DNA of 26,450 bases from a virus. The translations under genes and the position numbers were made by a program. Positions 5,254-17,843 of this stretch are shown one piece after another. Positions within the stretch are counted from its first letter, which is position 1, and each line of letters begins with the position of its first letter. The notes under the pieces were generated by a model. The model worked only from the letters and a program-made list of their open reading frames with translations, had not been told where the DNA came from and searched no databases. The DNA lies in IMG/VR virus record IMGVR_UViG_3300033571_021301, positions 1 through 26,450 of that record. One strand, 5' to 3'.

Positions 5254-5616
5254 CTACTTTTCAGGTTTGCGTAGCAAGCCTTTACTCATCGCCTCTGCCG
5301 GGTTCGCATGAACATATTGGTGACATGCCGTGCATAAAGCCAAAAGGTTTGAAGGATCGTGGCCGCCACCTTGAGATCGGCGCAACACATGATGCACGGC
5401 TTCTGCTTGTCCAGTACACACCTGTAACCGTGCTTCGCATACGCCTTGGCTTCGTTCGGCCACCACTTTCCGGGATTTAACTAAAGCCCCATCGGTTTTG
5501 ACACGTCGCTTTATTGGCTTGCGTTTGATCGGTTTCTGTGACCTTTTGAGAGGTGTGCGCTTGAGAGGCTTTTTAGGCTTCAAGTTCGATGGTGGCTTTC
5601 CCTTGCTCCAACGCAT
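5254..5616 (-). CDS. HNH endonuclease
   Basis: The C-terminal half has the treble-clef HNH core: CEARLQVC, then AVHHVLRRSQGG, DPSNLLALCTACHQYVH. The two CxxC-like pairs should bind structural zinc and the paired His the catalytic metal. The first 45 residues are a basic repeat (KPKKPLKRTPLKRS, KPIKRKPIKRR) of the type found on phage HNH proteins of this class and probably binds DNA nonspecifically. I chose the ATG at 5616; a TTG further down (about 5586) is a possible alternative, since no start has a clear ribosome binding site. It overlaps the upstream helicase-loader-like gene by about 44 bp. Many phage HNH proteins act in packaging, but this one lies among replication and recombination genes. 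Confidence 0.85.
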   Translation of the reverse strand: MRWSKGKPPSNLKPKKPLKRTPLKRSQKPIKRKPIKRRVKTDGALVKSRKVVAERSQGVCEARLQVCTGQAEAVHHVLRRSQGGGHDPSNLLALCTACHQYVHANPAEAMSKGLLRKPEK

Positions 5617-6076
5617 CGTTAGCAGTTGCCACAAGTTCCTTCAACACTTCTCGATCTAACGACTTCGCCATACTGTCGTACATCCTGAGGAAGTTTGAGC
5701 GAAGCACATCAACATTCTCCGACATACAGATATCACGCCAACCAATTGCCTTCACAACAGCCTCTGTGGTCGCATGAGAGAACTCAGGAACGCCGCTACG
5801 GCCCTTCTCGCTTACTTGCCGTAAAACATCCTGCCAAGCCATTGCAGGGGCTGGAGATACCGCCCCGGATATTCGAGCGACCGCGTTGAGGATCTGTGCA
5901 GGGGAAGGGAAGAACTCTGATTCTCGGACTATCTCTTTTGCCGCAACCATCACATCCGGGGCAGGCAAACCGCTCAGAACATCGTGGAAAACTATCGCCG
6001 TTTGTTTCGTAACCTTCGCATTAGGAAAAGCCGCAGCCAAATAACCCAAAACTTCTGCTGTTTCATGTTTGTTCAC
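5573..6076 (-). CDS. Helicase loader-like protein (G39P type)
   Basis: A 167-aa helical protein. The N-terminal 65 residues (ETAEVLGYLAAAFPN, IVFHDVLSGLP, AAKEIVRESEFFPSPAQI) match the pattern of the phage SPP1 G39P-type N-terminal domain: a helix around YLAAAFP, a helix with W/F-x-x-L-x-x-L/P, and the 'FFPSPAQI' end. In that family the protein binds the replicative helicase and loads it at the origin through an initiator. The remainder is helical and less conserved, matching G39P's flexible C-terminus. It starts with GTG, overlapping the TGA of the upstream O-like initiator (GTGA), with GGAGGAGTT as ribosome binding site. Pairing with that initiator strongly supports the role, but the identification is by pattern only. 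Confidence 0.65.
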   Translation of the reverse strand: MNKHETAEVLGYLAAAFPNAKVTKQTAIVFHDVLSGLPAPDVMVAAKEIVRESEFFPSPAQILNAVARISGAVSPAPAMAWQDVLRQVSEKGRSGVPEFSHATTEAVVKAIGWRDICMSENVDVLRSNFLRMYDSMAKSLDREVLKELVATANDALEQGKATIELEA

Positions 6077-6837
6077 AACTCCTCCAAAAAGTCTCTAATT
6101 CCATCAAATCCACGTGGCTCATTCTGCTGTCTTTCGCGTTGAGCCTGCAAACGCATCGTGTCGTACTTCGCTCTTAGTTTTCCCGGAGACAAAATGTTCG
6201 CTTTCCAGAAATCGTTTTGCTGTGACCACCGAATACACGCCTCAACCTGCTGTGATGTTCGCCCATCAAGGCGCAAGATCTTGTCCATGTCGTGAACCCA
6301 CTTCTCGGTGATGTTGGGTGACTTGCATCCGTTGAGAACCATCAAGCTTGAGAGCAAATGGCAAAGCCGTGAGGCTTCTGACATGTTTCCTATGTACGGT
6401 TCTTTTACGGTTATGTACGGTTTGGGTGCATCTCCTGCACCCCGTTCTGTCGTCATATGCACCCCGTTCGGTATGACATGCACCCCGTTAGTGTCGTCAA
6501 ATGCACCCCGTTCATCAACGACCTGCTCCTCCTGCACCTCGTTACGAAGACCCAAAGCCAAGTTCCAACCTTGCGGCCTACGGTCATGTCGAGGGATATG
6601 AGCTGCCACTATCCGAGGATCGCATCGGTAAATGACACCAAGTTCTTCCAATTCATCCAACTTCAGGCGTATGGCGCGTTCAGACAGCAACGTGTACCGC
6701 TGGATCGTGCCAACGGAAGGAAAAGCTGCCGTACCATCAGGGCGAGCATGATTAGCAAGGGCAAGCAACACTAACTTTTGGGTGGGCGATTTACAGGGTG
6801 CGTGATTTAACGCCCACGAATACGCCTCAACACTCAC
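6073..6837 (-). CDS. Lambda O-like replication initiator
   Basis: A 254-aa protein with an N-terminal winged-helix domain (residues ~5-75: SWALNHAPCKSPTQKLVLLALANHA split across helix 1-2, FPSVGTIQRYTLLSERAIRLKLDELEELGVI over two further helices) typical of phage replication initiators and 'replisome organisers'. The C-terminal segment (ACIRWSQQNDFWKANILSPG, LRAKYDTM) is a feature of initiator proteins in this family that contact the helicase loader. Between them is a low-complexity linker (about residues 105-150) whose DNA holds the iteron array described separately, just as lambda's origin sits inside its O gene. It starts with a GTG and has a weak ribosome binding site. It is followed by the helicase-loader-like gene with a 4-bp overlap. 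Confidence 0.8.
   Translation of the reverse strand: MSVEAYSWALNHAPCKSPTQKLVLLALANHARPDGTAAFPSVGTIQRYTLLSERAIRLKLDELEELGVIYRCDPRIVAAHIPRHDRRPQGWNLALGLRNEVQEEQVVDERGAFDDTNGVHVIPNGVHMTTERGAGDAPKPYITVKEPYIGNMSEASRLCHLLSSLMVLNGCKSPNITEKWVHDMDKILRLDGRTSQQVEACIRWSQQNDFWKANILSPGKLRAKYDTMRLQAQRERQQNEPRGFDGIRDFLEEL
6391..6543. other. ori: Probable phage replication origin (iteron array inside initiator gene)
   Basis: Plus strand: four exact copies of the 11-mer TGCACCCCGTT start at 6436, 6458, 6479 and 6502, i.e. 22, 21 and 23 bp apart, about two helical turns. A fifth, degenerate copy TGCACCTCGTT starts at 6533. To the left are two copies of TATGTACGGTT at 6391 and 6412 (21 bp apart) in more AT-rich DNA. 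The 22- and 23-bp spacings are not multiples of three, so the repeat is kept at DNA rather than protein level. Placement inside the initiator's variable linker is the lambda-type layout. Binding by the initiator is inference. Confidence 0.75.
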
Positions 6838-6961: not shown

Positions 6962-7693
6962 TCAAAAAGGCTCTTCTTCAGGAAGCATCTCAACGATTGG
7001 CTGAGGGTTCATCAACGAATCAATGACCTGCGAAGCCTCTCGACTGTTCATATCTTTGGCCGTACTCAACGCATGACCAACGATCCCTGCACAATAGCCA
7101 ACCACATCGCTGATCTGGTTATCTTTTGCCAACTTGTTGATCAAGAACACCTGCTTCTCTGAAACAGGGTTGCCTGCTGATGCCTGCTTTGCCGTAGGGC
7201 GAGCTACAGACGCATTAGAAGGCTGCTGAGGCTGAGTTGGGGCATTTACTACCGTGCTTCCCGGAAAGGACTTCGTAACCGTCTGTACCGTCACTCCACC
7301 GCTACCGCTGTCCTGCTTTGACCAGAGATTGAGCGCAATTCCGAAACGCATCGAACCGTTGCGTAATAGATCGCCAATGAGCTCCTTCTCATAATCAGCC
7401 TTATCTGCCCTTGCAGAACCAACACAGATCATGGATTTGCCAAGCAGGGTTAGTTTCCCCCACATCGTTGCCATACCGTTTTCAATGTGAATGGCAGGCC
7501 GCCCATTGATCCATTCAATCGGTTCCCATGACCATCCGCTGTCCACTTGAATGAGAATGCGTGTGATTTCCGAATGTGATACGTAACTGAGATTTACGCC
7601 ATTCCGGGGGATCGTTCCCACGATCTTTGGATCTGGTGACGCATACTCGTCAAGCACCGCCCTCAACAATTGACCATTTAACTCTTCACTCAT
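6962..7693 (-). CDS. Single-strand annealing protein (Rad52/ERF-like) with SSB-like tail
   Basis: A 243-aa recombination protein predicted to coat and anneal single-stranded DNA made by the neighbouring exonuclease. The N-terminal 125 residues end in KADYEKELIGDLLRNGSMRFGIALNLWSK (positions 97-125), the helix that in Sak/ERF/Rad52-type proteins reads like 'K..etdAlkRaa..fGiglyLw'. A Gln/Ser/Pro-rich linker follows (about 127-175), then a small helical domain (SEKQVFLINKLAKDNQI, REASQVIDSLM) also found at the end of other phage annealing proteins. The last residues LPEEEPF resemble the acidic, Phe-ending tail of SSB. The start overlaps the exonuclease gene by 8 bp, the classic Red-type pair. 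The exact superfamily (Rad52 versus ERF) is uncertain. Confidence 0.75.
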   Translation of the reverse strand: MSEELNGQLLRAVLDEYASPDPKIVGTIPRNGVNLSYVSHSEITRILIQVDSGWSWEPIEWINGRPAIHIENGMATMWGKLTLLGKSMICVGSARADKADYEKELIGDLLRNGSMRFGIALNLWSKQDSGSGGVTVQTVTKSFPGSTVVNAPTQPQQPSNASVARPTAKQASAGNPVSEKQVFLINKLAKDNQISDVVGYCAGIVGHALSTAKDMNSREASQVIDSLMNPQPIVEMLPEEEPF

Positions 7694-8642
7694 CTTTTCC
7701 TCCGTTTAACATCCGCATCGTGCGGAATGGGTTTCCTTGTTTCATGTATTGCTTTACTAAATCAGGGTGAGCCTCTTTCAAGGCTTTCGTGTCCAAACTT
7801 TCACGACCAGCCATTTGTTTCCAAGAAACTACACGCTTGCCGTGCAACAACCCAACCTCGTTGTCCAACAACATTCGAGCCAACGCATCCTTCGCCTGCT
7901 TTTCCTGAGCCTCGCCTTGAGCCTTCAACTCGCGCCCAACTTCAAGCAACTGCAAAAAGGTTTCAGCCTCAGCAGGCAACTCAATCGTTGTCTTGGCCGC
8001 CGGGAACATTGAAGCAATGTCATCAGCACTCAAATCCTGAATCAACTCATCAGACAGAGGCTCTTTATTGTCAATCATTTTGCCAATACGTTCCGCTTCA
8101 GCATCAATCGCATCCGCTAAACCATTGTCAAAAGGCATTTCAACGACCGTAAAGTTCTGTCGCTTATCAAACACACCGAAGAACACAGGACAGCCAACGA
8201 TTTTGGACTGCATATGCCCTTGGGCGATCCATTCCTGAGGCAAATCAGAACCAGAGTTGATCGTGTACTTGCCTGTCACCTTGATTTCTCCGATGAACTC
8301 AGGCTTTTCTACCGAAGCAACTGGAACAGCATCAAGCGAACCAACCCATCGACCACCTGTGTAAACCACTTCCGGGGTCACCAAAGCAGTACCAAGCCTC
8401 AACCCCATCTCCTCAACAAGCAAAGGCTCCATCAGGTTGCCTTTACGCATCGCCCAACTTTCCTCAACCACAACAGGTGAAGTCAGTTTCTCCATATACA
8501 ACTGTGCGCGACTCTTGTAAGGACTTACGCCCATCAAAGCTGACGCATCAGAGTAACCAAAAACGGCTTCCCCTTCCTCGTTTCTGAACCTATCCCACAG
8601 CCATTCGGCTGAACCATGTTTATGTTTCGGTTTTGTTTTCAT
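7686..8642 (-). CDS. YqaJ/lambda-exonuclease-type recombination nuclease
   Basis: A 318-aa 5'-3' exonuclease of the PD-(D/E)xK fold. Visible motifs: GYSDASALMGVSPYKS (family 'igASe.a.iLG.spy' entry), AMRKGNLMEPLLVEEM (the conserved G-x-x-x-E helix), GSLDAVP (active-site Asp) and GEIKVTGKY (E-x-K catalytic pair), followed by WIAQGHMQSKIVGCPV, the Q-bearing helix. C-terminal 100 residues are an extension with coiled-coil character and the RESLDTKALKEAHPDLVKQY segment that also closes other YqaJ proteins. It prepares ssDNA for the annealing protein encoded immediately after with an 8-bp overlap. Two purine-rich ribosome binding candidates precede the ATG. Confidence 0.87.
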   Translation of the reverse strand: MKTKPKHKHGSAEWLWDRFRNEEGEAVFGYSDASALMGVSPYKSRAQLYMEKLTSPVVVEESWAMRKGNLMEPLLVEEMGLRLGTALVTPEVVYTGGRWVGSLDAVPVASVEKPEFIGEIKVTGKYTINSGSDLPQEWIAQGHMQSKIVGCPVFFGVFDKRQNFTVVEMPFDNGLADAIDAEAERIGKMIDNKEPLSDELIQDLSADDIASMFPAAKTTIELPAEAETFLQLLEVGRELKAQGEAQEKQAKDALARMLLDNEVGLLHGKRVVSWKQMAGRESLDTKALKEAHPDLVKQYMKQGNPFRTMRMLNGGKDE

Positions 8643-8675: not shown

Positions 8676-10604
8676 TTAAAGCTGCTCCACCTGCCATATT
8701 TGTTTTGCGATCCACTTTGCCACCGGGGTAGCAACTCCATTTCCACACATTTTGTATCTGTGGGTATCCGACATTGGCGAACCATCAGCCTTGAAAGCCG
8801 TATGGTGCAACGGCCATCCCATCAGTAACTCGCATTCTGAAGGCGTAAGGCGACGTACCGCCATCTGTGGCTCACCATCATGTAACTGAATATGAGGCTC
8901 GTTATCTCCACGCTTAGATTCCGCTCGAAGAGTAGGAACTGTTCCTTCCCAAACACCGCCACCTAAACGCACCATCGTTCCGGGTTGAAACACCGTTGGC
9001 TCATCAACGGGCTGTGCCACGAAATCGCTGCTATCACGACCAACCCTTAACGAGCGATGAATCCCGGAATCATCAAGTTTCTGGTTATATCCGTCATACA
9101 CCACAGGCTCAGTAATGAACATTTGGGCATGGTGCGACTGTGGGCTTGGCCGTAAACCAGTCAACGCATTAGCCGTATCTAATTCTGTAGCCGAGAAAGT
9201 GTTTGCCTTAGCGTCTTCACGAACCGAATAAGCGACTGAAGGTGACTGTTGGCTTGCTTTCAATGTTGGTGAGCAGTCCTCGGTGACGTTCGCATTAGAA
9301 CCAAACTGTGTATCAAAAGCCAAAGGAACAGCAACCATCGGCGTGTTACCGCCACCTGTACCCATCTTCGCTGACAAGGTTTGAGTAACCCCATCTTTTG
9401 AAATCCGCGCACCATCACGATAAGAGTTTTCAAACAGGACAGTCGCATCCTCAACAATGGCAATGCCACCTTGATTCAGACTTGGATCAGGCTTCCAAGT
9501 ATCCAAAGTTTTAGCCACATCAACCTCGTTTACGCCGCTATCCGGGTTAGAGGATTTCATTGAGTTAGACGACAAAGAATCAAACGCATAGACAGTTTGC
9601 TCAACAATTACATGAGCCGAATCTGTTGTCTCTGTTCCCCTCGGCCCAGAACCACTCTTTGCGGTCAAAGGGCCGACAGTATCCGAATAAATAACAGCGG
9701 TTGTTGTCCGAGTGTCTCCCACATCAAACGCATTCAATGTCGGAGAAACCTCACCTTCAATCCAAGTCTCATCGTCAGTAGCTGACTGCGCTCGGCGCGA
9801 CTTCACAAACAGCGATGGATTTTCTTCAATGACCGCTTGAAGACGTTGCTTATCAGGCATTCTTTGTAGATCCGATGTGGTGGTCAGCGAATCCGCTACT
9901 TGTCCACCGTTCCACCATTCACTTGATCCCTCTCTTCCGGGGGCAACAATTCCACTCTCATCTCCAACGCCTTCTGTAAGCGTTCTGGCAGAACCTTTCC
10001 TCTTCGGTTTGCCCTTCTCAAAATGCCTTGGCAAGCTTTCGGAGACAGGTAATAACGGGTCGGGACACTTTGCGGCGGTTGCAGGATCGAACTGAGAGAT
10101 GAGCCAAATGCGTCTTCTGCGTTGGGGGATTCCGAAAAAGCGCGCATCCAACATAGCGTATTCTTGGAGAACCGCCCCTGCTTCTGCCATTTCATTGATG
10201 ACTGTTGCAAAATCTCTTCCATTGTTAGAAGTGATTGCTCCTGCGACGTTTTCCCAAACTGTCCATCGGGGAAAAGCTCCATTTGTGACATAACGCATCT
10301 CCTTGATAATTCGTACTGCTTCGTGAAATAAACCTGATCGTGAACCTTCCAACCCGGCGCGCTTTCCAGCAACTGAGAGGTCTTGGCACGGGCTGCCAAA
10401 AATTATGATATCTACAGGCGGTAAAAACTTTCCGTCAACAGCAGAAATGTCACCCCACTTTTGAACATCAGGCCAATGCCTATCTAACACGCTTCGACAG
10501 TTCTTATCCCACTCCACTTGGAACTTGCATTCCGCGTAAGGGTCAAAACCCATATCAAAACCGCCCACCCCGGAAAAGAGGCTGCCGTACGTTAGTTGTT
10601 TCAT
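8676..10604 (-). CDS. DNA (cytosine-5) methyltransferase with expanded target-recognition region
   Basis: Transfers a methyl group from AdoMet to C5 of cytosine in a specific DNA site. Conserved motifs (numbered from the ATG at 10607): LFSGVGGFDMGF (I, 10-21), SPCQDLS with catalytic Cys74 (IV), WENVAGA (VI, 118-124), PQRRRRIW (VIII, 161-168), RRLTPSECELLMGWP (IX, ~585-599) and YKMCGNGVATPVAKW (X, ~618-632). The target-recognition region between VIII and IX is about 400 residues, several times the normal size, and contains about ten recurring 'xxTLxA' units. Two ATGs are adjacent; the second (10604) has better spacing from GGGAGG. It stands alone behind its own promoter, with no restriction enzyme nearby, so protection from host restriction is the likely role. 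It may relate to the CCSGG pattern in this genome. Confidence 0.93.
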   Translation of the reverse strand: MKQLTYGSLFSGVGGFDMGFDPYAECKFQVEWDKNCRSVLDRHWPDVQKWGDISAVDGKFLPPVDIIIFGSPCQDLSVAGKRAGLEGSRSGLFHEAVRIIKEMRYVTNGAFPRWTVWENVAGAITSNNGRDFATVINEMAEAGAVLQEYAMLDARFFGIPQRRRRIWLISQFDPATAAKCPDPLLPVSESLPRHFEKGKPKRKGSARTLTEGVGDESGIVAPGREGSSEWWNGGQVADSLTTTSDLQRMPDKQRLQAVIEENPSLFVKSRRAQSATDDETWIEGEVSPTLNAFDVGDTRTTTAVIYSDTVGPLTAKSGSGPRGTETTDSAHVIVEQTVYAFDSLSSNSMKSSNPDSGVNEVDVAKTLDTWKPDPSLNQGGIAIVEDATVLFENSYRDGARISKDGVTQTLSAKMGTGGGNTPMVAVPLAFDTQFGSNANVTEDCSPTLKASQQSPSVAYSVREDAKANTFSATELDTANALTGLRPSPQSHHAQMFITEPVVYDGYNQKLDDSGIHRSLRVGRDSSDFVAQPVDEPTVFQPGTMVRLGGGVWEGTVPTLRAESKRGDNEPHIQLHDGEPQMAVRRLTPSECELLMGWPLHHTAFKADGSPMSDTHRYKMCGNGVATPVAKWIAKQIWQVEQL

Positions 10605-10628
10605 CATTTCCTCCCAAAAGGTTCCCTC

Positions 10629-16259: not shown

Positions 16260-17182
16260 CAGAAAGTCACCGAACCTGTACCAGCAGTAAACGTGTAAAC
16301 ACGATAACCGCTACGACTTGAAGTGCTAACCGAATAAGTTAAACCTGCACCGATTGTTGTTATAGCAGGATATGTGCTTTCGTAGGCAATAATAACTACA
16401 CCAGAACCACCGTTTCCACCTATTGTTGTTCCACCAGCACTAGCGGCTCCACCACCACCGCCACCCGTGTTGCCAGTTCCTGCCCCACCATTTCCTGATC
16501 CAGAACCATTGCCGCCACCACCTGAACCACCTGATGTTGCTCCAACATAATGACCTGCACCGCAACCACCACCACCAGCACGTGTTGTTGCAACTCCATC
16601 TATTGATGACGATGAACCAGTACCACCATTACCTCCTGTTGTTCCTGCAGCACCTGCACCACCGCCTGAACCTCCGTAATAAGGATTTGCGTTATACCCT
16701 GCACCACCATCGTTTCCTTGTGATGGGCTAGTTGAAGGGGTATTACCCAAACCAGCAGCCGCGTCAGTATTTCCACCGCCACCGCCACCAGAACCACCAT
16801 CTCGTTGAGTATTCAACGTACCGCTACCACTAGAAGCACCACCACCACCAGTCGAAGTGATGCTTGAAAGAATACTGCTGTTACCCCTAGTGGAGTTAGA
16901 ATATGTTGAACCAGTACCACCTGCACCAACTGTTACGGTAAATGATCCAGTTGGGGTTGTGAAGCTTGCTGAAGTTCTGTACCCACCAGCACCGCCACCA
17001 CCACCTGCGCGTGAAAGACCTCCATCTGAACCACGACCACCACCGCCACCAGCAATTACAAGATATTCAAATGTTGGTGCAATATAAATCGGAGCTACAG
17101 ATGTAGCTGTAGTTGTACCACTCGCATAACCAAAAAGGTTTTGCGCGGAAGAACTACTCACATAACCAAGAGGCCTAGACAT
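16259..17182 (-). CDS. Glycine-rich tail fibre / adhesin (copy A)
   Basis: The frame is open further upstream, but the ATG at 17182, overlapping the sulfotransferase stop, gives a 307-aa protein starting MSRPLGYVSSSSAQ. The same entry (RxLGYVSS) is found in the paralogue at 18184. A beta strand region (APIYIAPTFEYLVIAGGGGG) leads to ~170 residues of Gly/Ser/Ala-rich sequence (GGGGAGGYR, GSGGGGGG, GGSGVVIIAYES), of the type called Gly-rich phage adhesin, probably folding into polyglycine-II sandwiches at the fibre tip. The last 45 residues are ordinary beta structure. It should recognise the host surface. It is followed by its small partner gene with overlap. Confidence 0.83.
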   Translation of the reverse strand: MSRPLGYVSSSSAQNLFGYASGTTTATSVAPIYIAPTFEYLVIAGGGGGRGSDGGLSRAGGGGGAGGYRTSASFTTPTGSFTVTVGAGGTGSTYSNSTRGNSSILSSITSTGGGGASSGSGTLNTQRDGGSGGGGGGNTDAAAGLGNTPSTSPSQGNDGGAGYNANPYYGGSGGGAGAAGTTGGNGGTGSSSSIDGVATTRAGGGGCGAGHYVGATSGGSGGGGNGSGSGNGGAGTGNTGGGGGGAASAGGTTIGGNGGSGVVIIAYESTYPAITTIGAGLTYSVSTSSRSGYRVYTFTAGTGSVTF

Positions 17183-17843
17183 TGACCACTCCAACCTTTT
17201 TACGAACGTCGTGCATACCATCCAAACCGTACACAGAATCATTTTCTTGGTTCACATTGACAACATTATCAAAATCATGTTCAAAAAATGGCAGGCCCAA
17301 AAACTCGTAAATCCGGGTTAATTCTTGATTCGGGTGAGAAACCAAATCATCGTAATCAACAAAAAGAAACATATCCGAATCATTTTCTAGCATCGCATGG
17401 TTCAAACCAATAGCAGCGATTTGTAATTCCTCAGCAAAAACGGAAGAAAAAAAATCATCACGGCCGTTATCAGCGAATAAACGGACAAAAGATGTTTCAA
17501 TATCTTCAAGTTTTCTTGTGCAACACACAATTTTTGGGTCTTCAGAAATATATTTTTTAATCAGACCGATATTCAACGGCAATGTCCATGCTCGACACTT
17601 ATCAATAACGACAGGTCTTTCAACATCAGAGTAATAAATACTAGGAATCTCTTTAACAAGCTCCGAAACATCGCGGCTATTTCCGCTTAATTTATTTGTT
17701 CGTTCAACAGACTGGCTTACATTCCACATTAAATCGCATAAACCTGACACACCTTCAGTATGAATATCCGGGTTTTGATACAAAATACTTGTTAATAAGG
17801 TGCTACCACTTCGCGGTAGTCCTGAAATGAAATGAAGTTTCAT
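17175..17843 (-). CDS. Sulfotransferase
   Basis: A 222-aa protein of the PAPS-dependent sulfotransferase fold. The 5'-phosphosulfate loop is clear: FISGLPRSGSTLLTSIL (residues 5-21). A core strand/loop (KIVCCTRKLEDIETSF) fits the 3'-phosphate-binding R-x7-S region, and HPNQELTRIYEFLGLPF matches the C-terminal 'p...l..i..FLglp' helix. It would move a sulfate from PAPS to a hydroxyl group of a sugar or protein. It sits between the two tail-fibre modules, suggesting the target is the fibre or a cell-surface sugar. The gene is visibly more AT-rich than its neighbours and lacks a good ribosome binding site, which points to recent transfer. Confidence 0.85.
   Translation of the reverse strand: MKLHFISGLPRSGSTLLTSILYQNPDIHTEGVSGLCDLMWNVSQSVERTNKLSGNSRDVSELVKEIPSIYYSDVERPVVIDKCRAWTLPLNIGLIKKYISEDPKIVCCTRKLEDIETSFVRLFADNGRDDFFSSVFAEELQIAAIGLNHAMLENDSDMFLFVDYDDLVSHPNQELTRIYEFLGLPFFEHDFDNVVNVNQENDSVYGLDGMHDVRKKVGVVNV

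Follow-up and report, generated by a model that had tools for sequence, protein, structure and literature searches.

Phage replication origins have rarely been located outside lambda and a few models. In lambda, the O protein binds iterons inside gene O, and an adjoining AT-rich tract opens (PMC7466680, PMC5043065). Repeats within an O-like gene are also noted in passages on Pseudomonas phage MD8, which encodes the O-like gp56 and the P-like gp57 (PMC8508860), and HTH_36 proteins occur in the non-lambdoid replication regions Eru5, 6, 8, 11 and 13 of E. coli phages, whose mechanism was called unknown (PMC8951638). We propose that positions 6391-6543 of the viral fragment analysed here, which comes from a freshwater phage, form a phage replication origin of lambda-like layout, within the stretch of the phage's initiator gene that codes for the linker, where a winged-helix domain would read the iterons, repeats at 11-bp intervals would open and DnaB would be loaded; we put the probability of this reading at roughly 85%. 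An earlier note made from the sequence alone had called the region a probable origin with the lambda layout, a view now supported by repeats that persist in relatives, by an array pattern found almost only in initiator genes and by a C-terminal domain related to that of lambda O.

The window (the whole stretch of DNA analysed, 26,450 nucleotides) is an IMG/VR fragment that shows 4 mismatches over about 26.4 kb to a longer record of 61,480 bp (G001; L318-L321), whose ends it spans. G001 looks near complete, because it carries a 123-bp terminal direct repeat. It yielded no DnaB_C or AAA_25 helicase match, which fits the use of a host helicase, and no Phage_integrase match; a WhiB gene points to an actinobacterial host. 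Genes for a single-strand annealing protein and a RecE/YqaJ-like exonuclease lie upstream of the initiator gene (6962-8642, minus strand), and RusA-like and HNH genes lie downstream of it. Elsewhere, the minus strand encodes a glutamine amidotransferase (GATase_6, 4e-16) adjoining an amidoligase (Amidoligase_2, 1.5e-30) at 809-2712, possibly a peptide- or surface-modifying pair; a 643-aa C5-cytosine methyltransferase with a long insert between its conserved blocks (8676-10607); and, amid tail-like glycine-rich genes at 17175-17843, a sulfotransferase-family protein (Sulfotransfer_3, 1.7e-17) in the part of the window with the lowest GC content, about 39-40%. Neither Rfam nor tRNA searches of the window returned a match. 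The turn in GC skew near 6.4 kb that had been suggested as a check is absent from the window, where all genes run one way and the skew is monotone, and also from six larger records, among them the near-complete relative of 61 kb; skew is not expected to be informative where all genes have one direction.

The initiator gene (6073-6837, minus strand, GTG start) encodes 254 aa and matches Pfam HTH_36 (1.6e-10) and the 'O-like' PHROG 391 (3.2e-28), as well as PHROGs 1032 and 2514. The only other Pfam match is a weak one to MarR_2, and no Rep_3 match was found at E values up to 0.1. We modelled the protein with AlphaFold2 from 57 sequences, having discarded an earlier model from 7 sequences with a mean pLDDT of 49.5. 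The model shows a confident winged helix at aa 1-93 (coded by 6559-6837, minus strand; pLDDT mostly about 90), which is presumed to read the iterons and whose recognition-helix region is YTLLSERAIRLKL, and a confident helical C-terminal domain at aa 152-239 (6121-6384, minus strand), related to the C-terminal domain of lambda O (35% identity over 68 aa, pairwise E 3e-11) and presumed to contact the loader. Between them, aa ~100-150 are disordered, with pLDDT below 50 over most of that length. The N-terminal domain is the part of the initiator that aligns best with winged helices; because a PDB fold search returned generic winged helices only (none at E <=0.001 with Foldseek; Z <=8.6 with VIA-align), we claim no specific structural homolog, and a sequence search among solved structures gave nothing useful for the initiator. 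The next gene (5573-6076, minus strand, 167 aa), which had been read as a helicase loader, is conserved with the initiator: among the relatives tested, 11 carry a homolog close to it. Its loader matches are weak: PHROG 2289, helicase loader, at 3.5e-6; the P-like PHROG 109 at 1.2e-3; and PF11417 (Inhibitor_G39P) at 17.6 bits, under the Pfam gathering score of 22. We therefore keep the putative loader as a weak assignment.

The part of the gene that encodes the disordered linker carries the array. On the plus strand, TGCACCCCGTT occurs exactly at 6436, 6458, 6479 and 6502, with spacings of 22/21/23, and a copy with one mismatch, TGCACCTCGTT, lies at 6533; the four exact repeats and the degenerate fifth were thus all located where the earlier note had seen them, and the disordered linker of the model together with the PHROG 391 match bears out their placement in the linker-coding part of an O-like initiator. 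Because the host gene lies on the minus strand, the sense-strand iteron is AACGGGGTGCA, present in four exact copies and one mismatched copy, AACGAGGTGCA, with spacings of 22/21/23/31 bp. Numbered along the gene, all on the minus strand, iteron 1 (the degenerate AACGAGGTGCA, 6533-6543) encodes NEVQ in frame 0, iteron 2 (6502-6512) ERGA in frame 1, iterons 3 (6479-6489) and 4 (6458-6468) NGVH in frame 0, and iteron 5 (6436-6446) ERGA in frame 1, at offsets of 294, 325, 348, 369 and 391 within the gene. The phase is helical and not codon-based, as had been argued from the spacing. Such an array is not expected by chance: within 6381-6560 the best 11-mer (<=1 mismatch) occurs five times, and the maximum in 300 dinucleotide shuffles was two. 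AACGGGGTGCA is non-palindromic, and an inverted half-site adjoins the last copy only.

The iteron is common to several phyla and not private to the window phage. We scanned viral contigs and one genome per species for 84,980 bacterial and archaeal species for exact iteron pairs, using no protein information. The genome scan yielded 103 stretches, of which 84 fall within an open reading frame that has the same N-terminal domain, and two of the remaining 19 (L146, L151) resemble pieces of such initiator genes; among the matches listed from viral contigs, most likewise fall in HTH_36 initiators. The array pattern is thus tied near-exclusively to this initiator family. Hosts include Pseudomonas, Halomonadaceae, Burkholderiaceae, Bordetella, Lysobacter, Pseudonocardiaceae and Rhodococcus, and the same array occurs in annotated phages such as BR141a (P. 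aeruginosa) and SC_8_H2H8_2017 (Pseudomonas), with a next gene annotated as replication protein P. The HTH_36 domain and its array are joined to varied C-terminal domains: lambda-O-like in the window phage, DnaT (PF17948) in Pseudomonas and Halomonadaceae members, and a CxxC-containing tail, judged by eye, in Pseudonocardiaceae and Rhodococcus members. In the literature searched, which included few subscription journals, no account of this class of iteron came to light, and its novelty is provisional.

Two further conserved parts, an inverted half-iteron and the three-unit form of the AACCGTA repeats, had been overlooked in the first reading. The half-iteron, TGCACCC (6424-6430, minus strand), stands 5 bp past iteron 5. 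Beyond it, the two TATGTACGGTT repeats noted earlier, 21 bp apart, are indeed present at 6391 and 6412, but the underlying pattern is three AACCGTA units on the minus strand (6416-6422, 6406-6412 and 6395-6401, together 6395-6422), at intervals of 10 and 11 bp (starts at 6395, 6406 and 6416, hence 11/10 on the plus strand), which make up a putative strand-opening element. AT content in the 36 bp past the inverted half is 61% (96th percentile), compared with 49% gene-wide, and the median over 56 representatives is the 98.5th percentile; in high-GC relatives (L214, L221) the AT-richness of the repeat region is only relative or absent. The window phage thus fits what we define in the present analysis as the ACGGGGTGCA-class of HTH_36 phage initiators: an HTH_36 N-terminal domain, direct iterons about 22 bp apart, an inverted half 5 bp past the last of them and A[AT]CC repeats at about 11 bp.

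By analogy with lambda, we infer a mechanism that runs from binding through opening and loading to origin activity. The initiator would use its N-terminal winged helix to bind the five direct iterons and the inverted half-site by the last of them. The iterons are about two helical turns apart and so would lie on one face of the DNA. The resulting nucleoprotein complex would strain the adjoining AT-rich DNA, so that the AACCGTA repeats, 10/11 bp apart, would open there and perhaps be kept as single strands. Loading of the host DnaB helicase would then fall to the lambda-O-like C-terminal domain together with the product of the next gene.

Across relatives, 11 bp is the modal spacing of the AACC repeats, and it is out of codon phase in phages of gammaproteobacteria, betaproteobacteria and actinobacteria with at least two characterised C-terminal types. 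Over the 56 representatives we counted 100 A[AT]CC pairs at 10-12 bp, whereas synonymous resampling gave 28.8 +/- 3.7 expected from the protein alone (maximum 39), so linker peptides account for part, not most, of the signal. Two distant initiators (L310, L303), with other or weak iterons, also have AACC-type 11-bp repeats in the linker. We suggest, without claiming even odds for it, that repeats of the form A[AT]CC[GA]T[CA], 11 bp apart, constitute an opening element that is invariant across a broad class of phage origins and that the initiator itself reads during strand parting, and that the whole is one module, with exchangeable pairs of iteron and winged helix and exchangeable C-terminal loading domains, which phages have spread across phyla. 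The common repeats would suggest a shared opening step in hosts as unlike as Pseudomonas and Actinobacteria. It is also possible, though short of probable, that the region is an origin in which the initiator neither opens nor holds the AACC repeats, these being a site for a host factor or a mere coding stretch of low stability. The share of the pairs that conserved linker peptides such as KPSxEPS explain (the resampled mean above) is in keeping with this, but the constancy of the 11-bp spacing across phage groups and C-terminal types makes a single host factor unlikely.

A second alternative is that the array is some other protein-binding site, such as an operator for autorepression of the initiator or a site for partition or packaging. 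Initiators commonly regulate their own genes, and a helically phased array bound by a helix-turn-helix protein could serve any such role. The array, however, lies more than 290 bp inside the gene, and a sigma-70 consensus scan found no promoter around it, which also leaves transcriptional activation in the lambda style unsupported. No partition or packaging gene adjoins; the genes around it serve replication and recombination. The AT-rich 11-bp repeats that are conserved next to the last iteron are consistent with strand opening. We consider this alternative improbable.

Comparison of relatives bears directly on whether the DNA or the peptide is maintained. All five iterons are kept, with at most one mismatch each, in ten close relatives. 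At 61% identity (L010/L244), the five copies are again kept and now encode SGVQ, DGVQ, ERGA, ERGA and ERGA, with frames and peptides changed, so that the repeats do persist as the linker protein drifts, the outcome for which the earlier note had proposed looking. Linkers of 12 representatives found by protein hold 49 exact iteron cores, against 1.4 expected and at most 5 when codons were resampled synonymously at the usage of each locus. RGA is written CGGGGTGCA in 37/40 linker cases in protein-found loci, compared with 8/193 elsewhere in pattern-found loci, and pattern-found arrays often carry copies in all three frames. Among the distant members (L301-L311), arrays are weaker and some do not rise above shuffles. 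These comparisons show that the repeats are under DNA-level selection. That they are a by-product of a repeated linker peptide, the DNA itself having no role, is highly improbable: the array is coding and ERGA and NGVH do recur, but it uses two frames here and all three in Pseudomonas relatives (0, 0, 1, 2, 0, giving RGA, TGC and GVQ), synonymous resampling fails to reproduce the iterons, and the codon choice for RGA is particular to the linker, the frame shifts and the resampling together ruling out a peptide-repeat origin.

In other lineages all iterons change together, to GGGGGGCA, GGGCTAAT, GGGGTGACA or GGGGCGTCGT, and the spacing of about 22 bp and the 11-bp repeats are kept. One group (L285/L295) has copies of GCGGGGGGCATC at an unchanged spacing of 31/23/22 with an inverted half of TGCCCCC. 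A relative 50% identical to the window (L248), whose placement in the tree is weakly supported, has all five as ACGGGCTAATC at 33/22/21/21 and an inverted half that is a poor match. Prophages of Actinomycetes and Arthrobacter phage Eesa have other iterons again, for example CGGGGTGACA with TGTCACCC, or CGGGGCGTCGT with ACGACG, and downstream of these, AACCGTCC-type repeats appear once more. The initiator gene of Moraxella phage Mcat8 (L339:1501-2619) carries a duplicated array of eight iterons (AAAGGGGGTACAA), spaced at 21/22/41 bp, with AATCC/AAACC repeats after it. When eight hand-picked iteron classes were paired with the downstream sequence, the true pairing of inverted half and own-class iteron scored 53, and 20 of 40,320 permutations did as well; the inverted half thus tends to change with the iteron sequence. 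Changes in the recognition helix that accompany the switches are suggestive, and the switches near the window, in one or two lineages each, do not allow a recognition code to be derived. Natural switches of this kind, in which the recognition helices are matched, could be used directly to test how winged helices read DNA. If our reading is correct, this is a widespread origin class in phages of unrelated bacteria, and the origins of many temperate and environmental phages could be read from sequence, in the linker of the HTH_36 initiator.

Among known systems, SPP1 resembles this locus in the order of its gp38 and gp39 genes, initiator then loader, and the next gene here has the weak Inhibitor_G39P match, under the Pfam cut-off, described above. 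SPP1 encodes its own helicase, gp40, a counterpart of which (DnaB_C/AAA_25) was not found in G001. Iteron plasmid origins of the RK2, F, R6K and P1 type likewise have non-palindromic, helically phased direct iterons beside an AT-rich region that opens and contains repeats of its own (PMC5043065, PMC10797057); unlike them, the present locus has no Rep_3-type match, its array lies within coding sequence and its initiator has a lambda-O-like C-terminal domain. The likeness to MD8 is one of description, since the sequence and frames of its repeats and any links to other hosts are absent from the passages concerned (PMC8508860). The Eru proteins belong to the same Pfam family as the window initiator, and their origins are not described in PMC8951638; the present reading, if true, supplies a testable proposal for them.

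The closest likeness is to lambda, whose annotated iterons were recovered by the same de novo search as a positive control. In both, the origin lies in the part of the initiator gene that encodes the linker, with about four iterons at 20-24 bp and an AT-rich tract 3' of them; a loader gene, putative in the window, follows, the phage has no DnaB of its own and the C-terminal domains are related. The iteron sequence is unrelated to those of lambda, as the earlier note had said, and lambda iterons are inverted repeats to which O dimers bind (PMC5043065), whereas those of the window are non-palindromic 11-mers. The inverted half-site and the 11-bp AACC repeats conserved here were not seen in the lambda sequence past its last iteron. 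The lambda O N-terminal domain is PF04492, Phage_rep_O (5.7e-36), in place of which the window initiator has HTH_36; because PF04492 is absent, we do not file it as lambda-O-type. The lambda layout claimed earlier is supported, with a correction to the N-terminal domain, and we propose that the origin works like that of lambda and shares its C-terminal domain.
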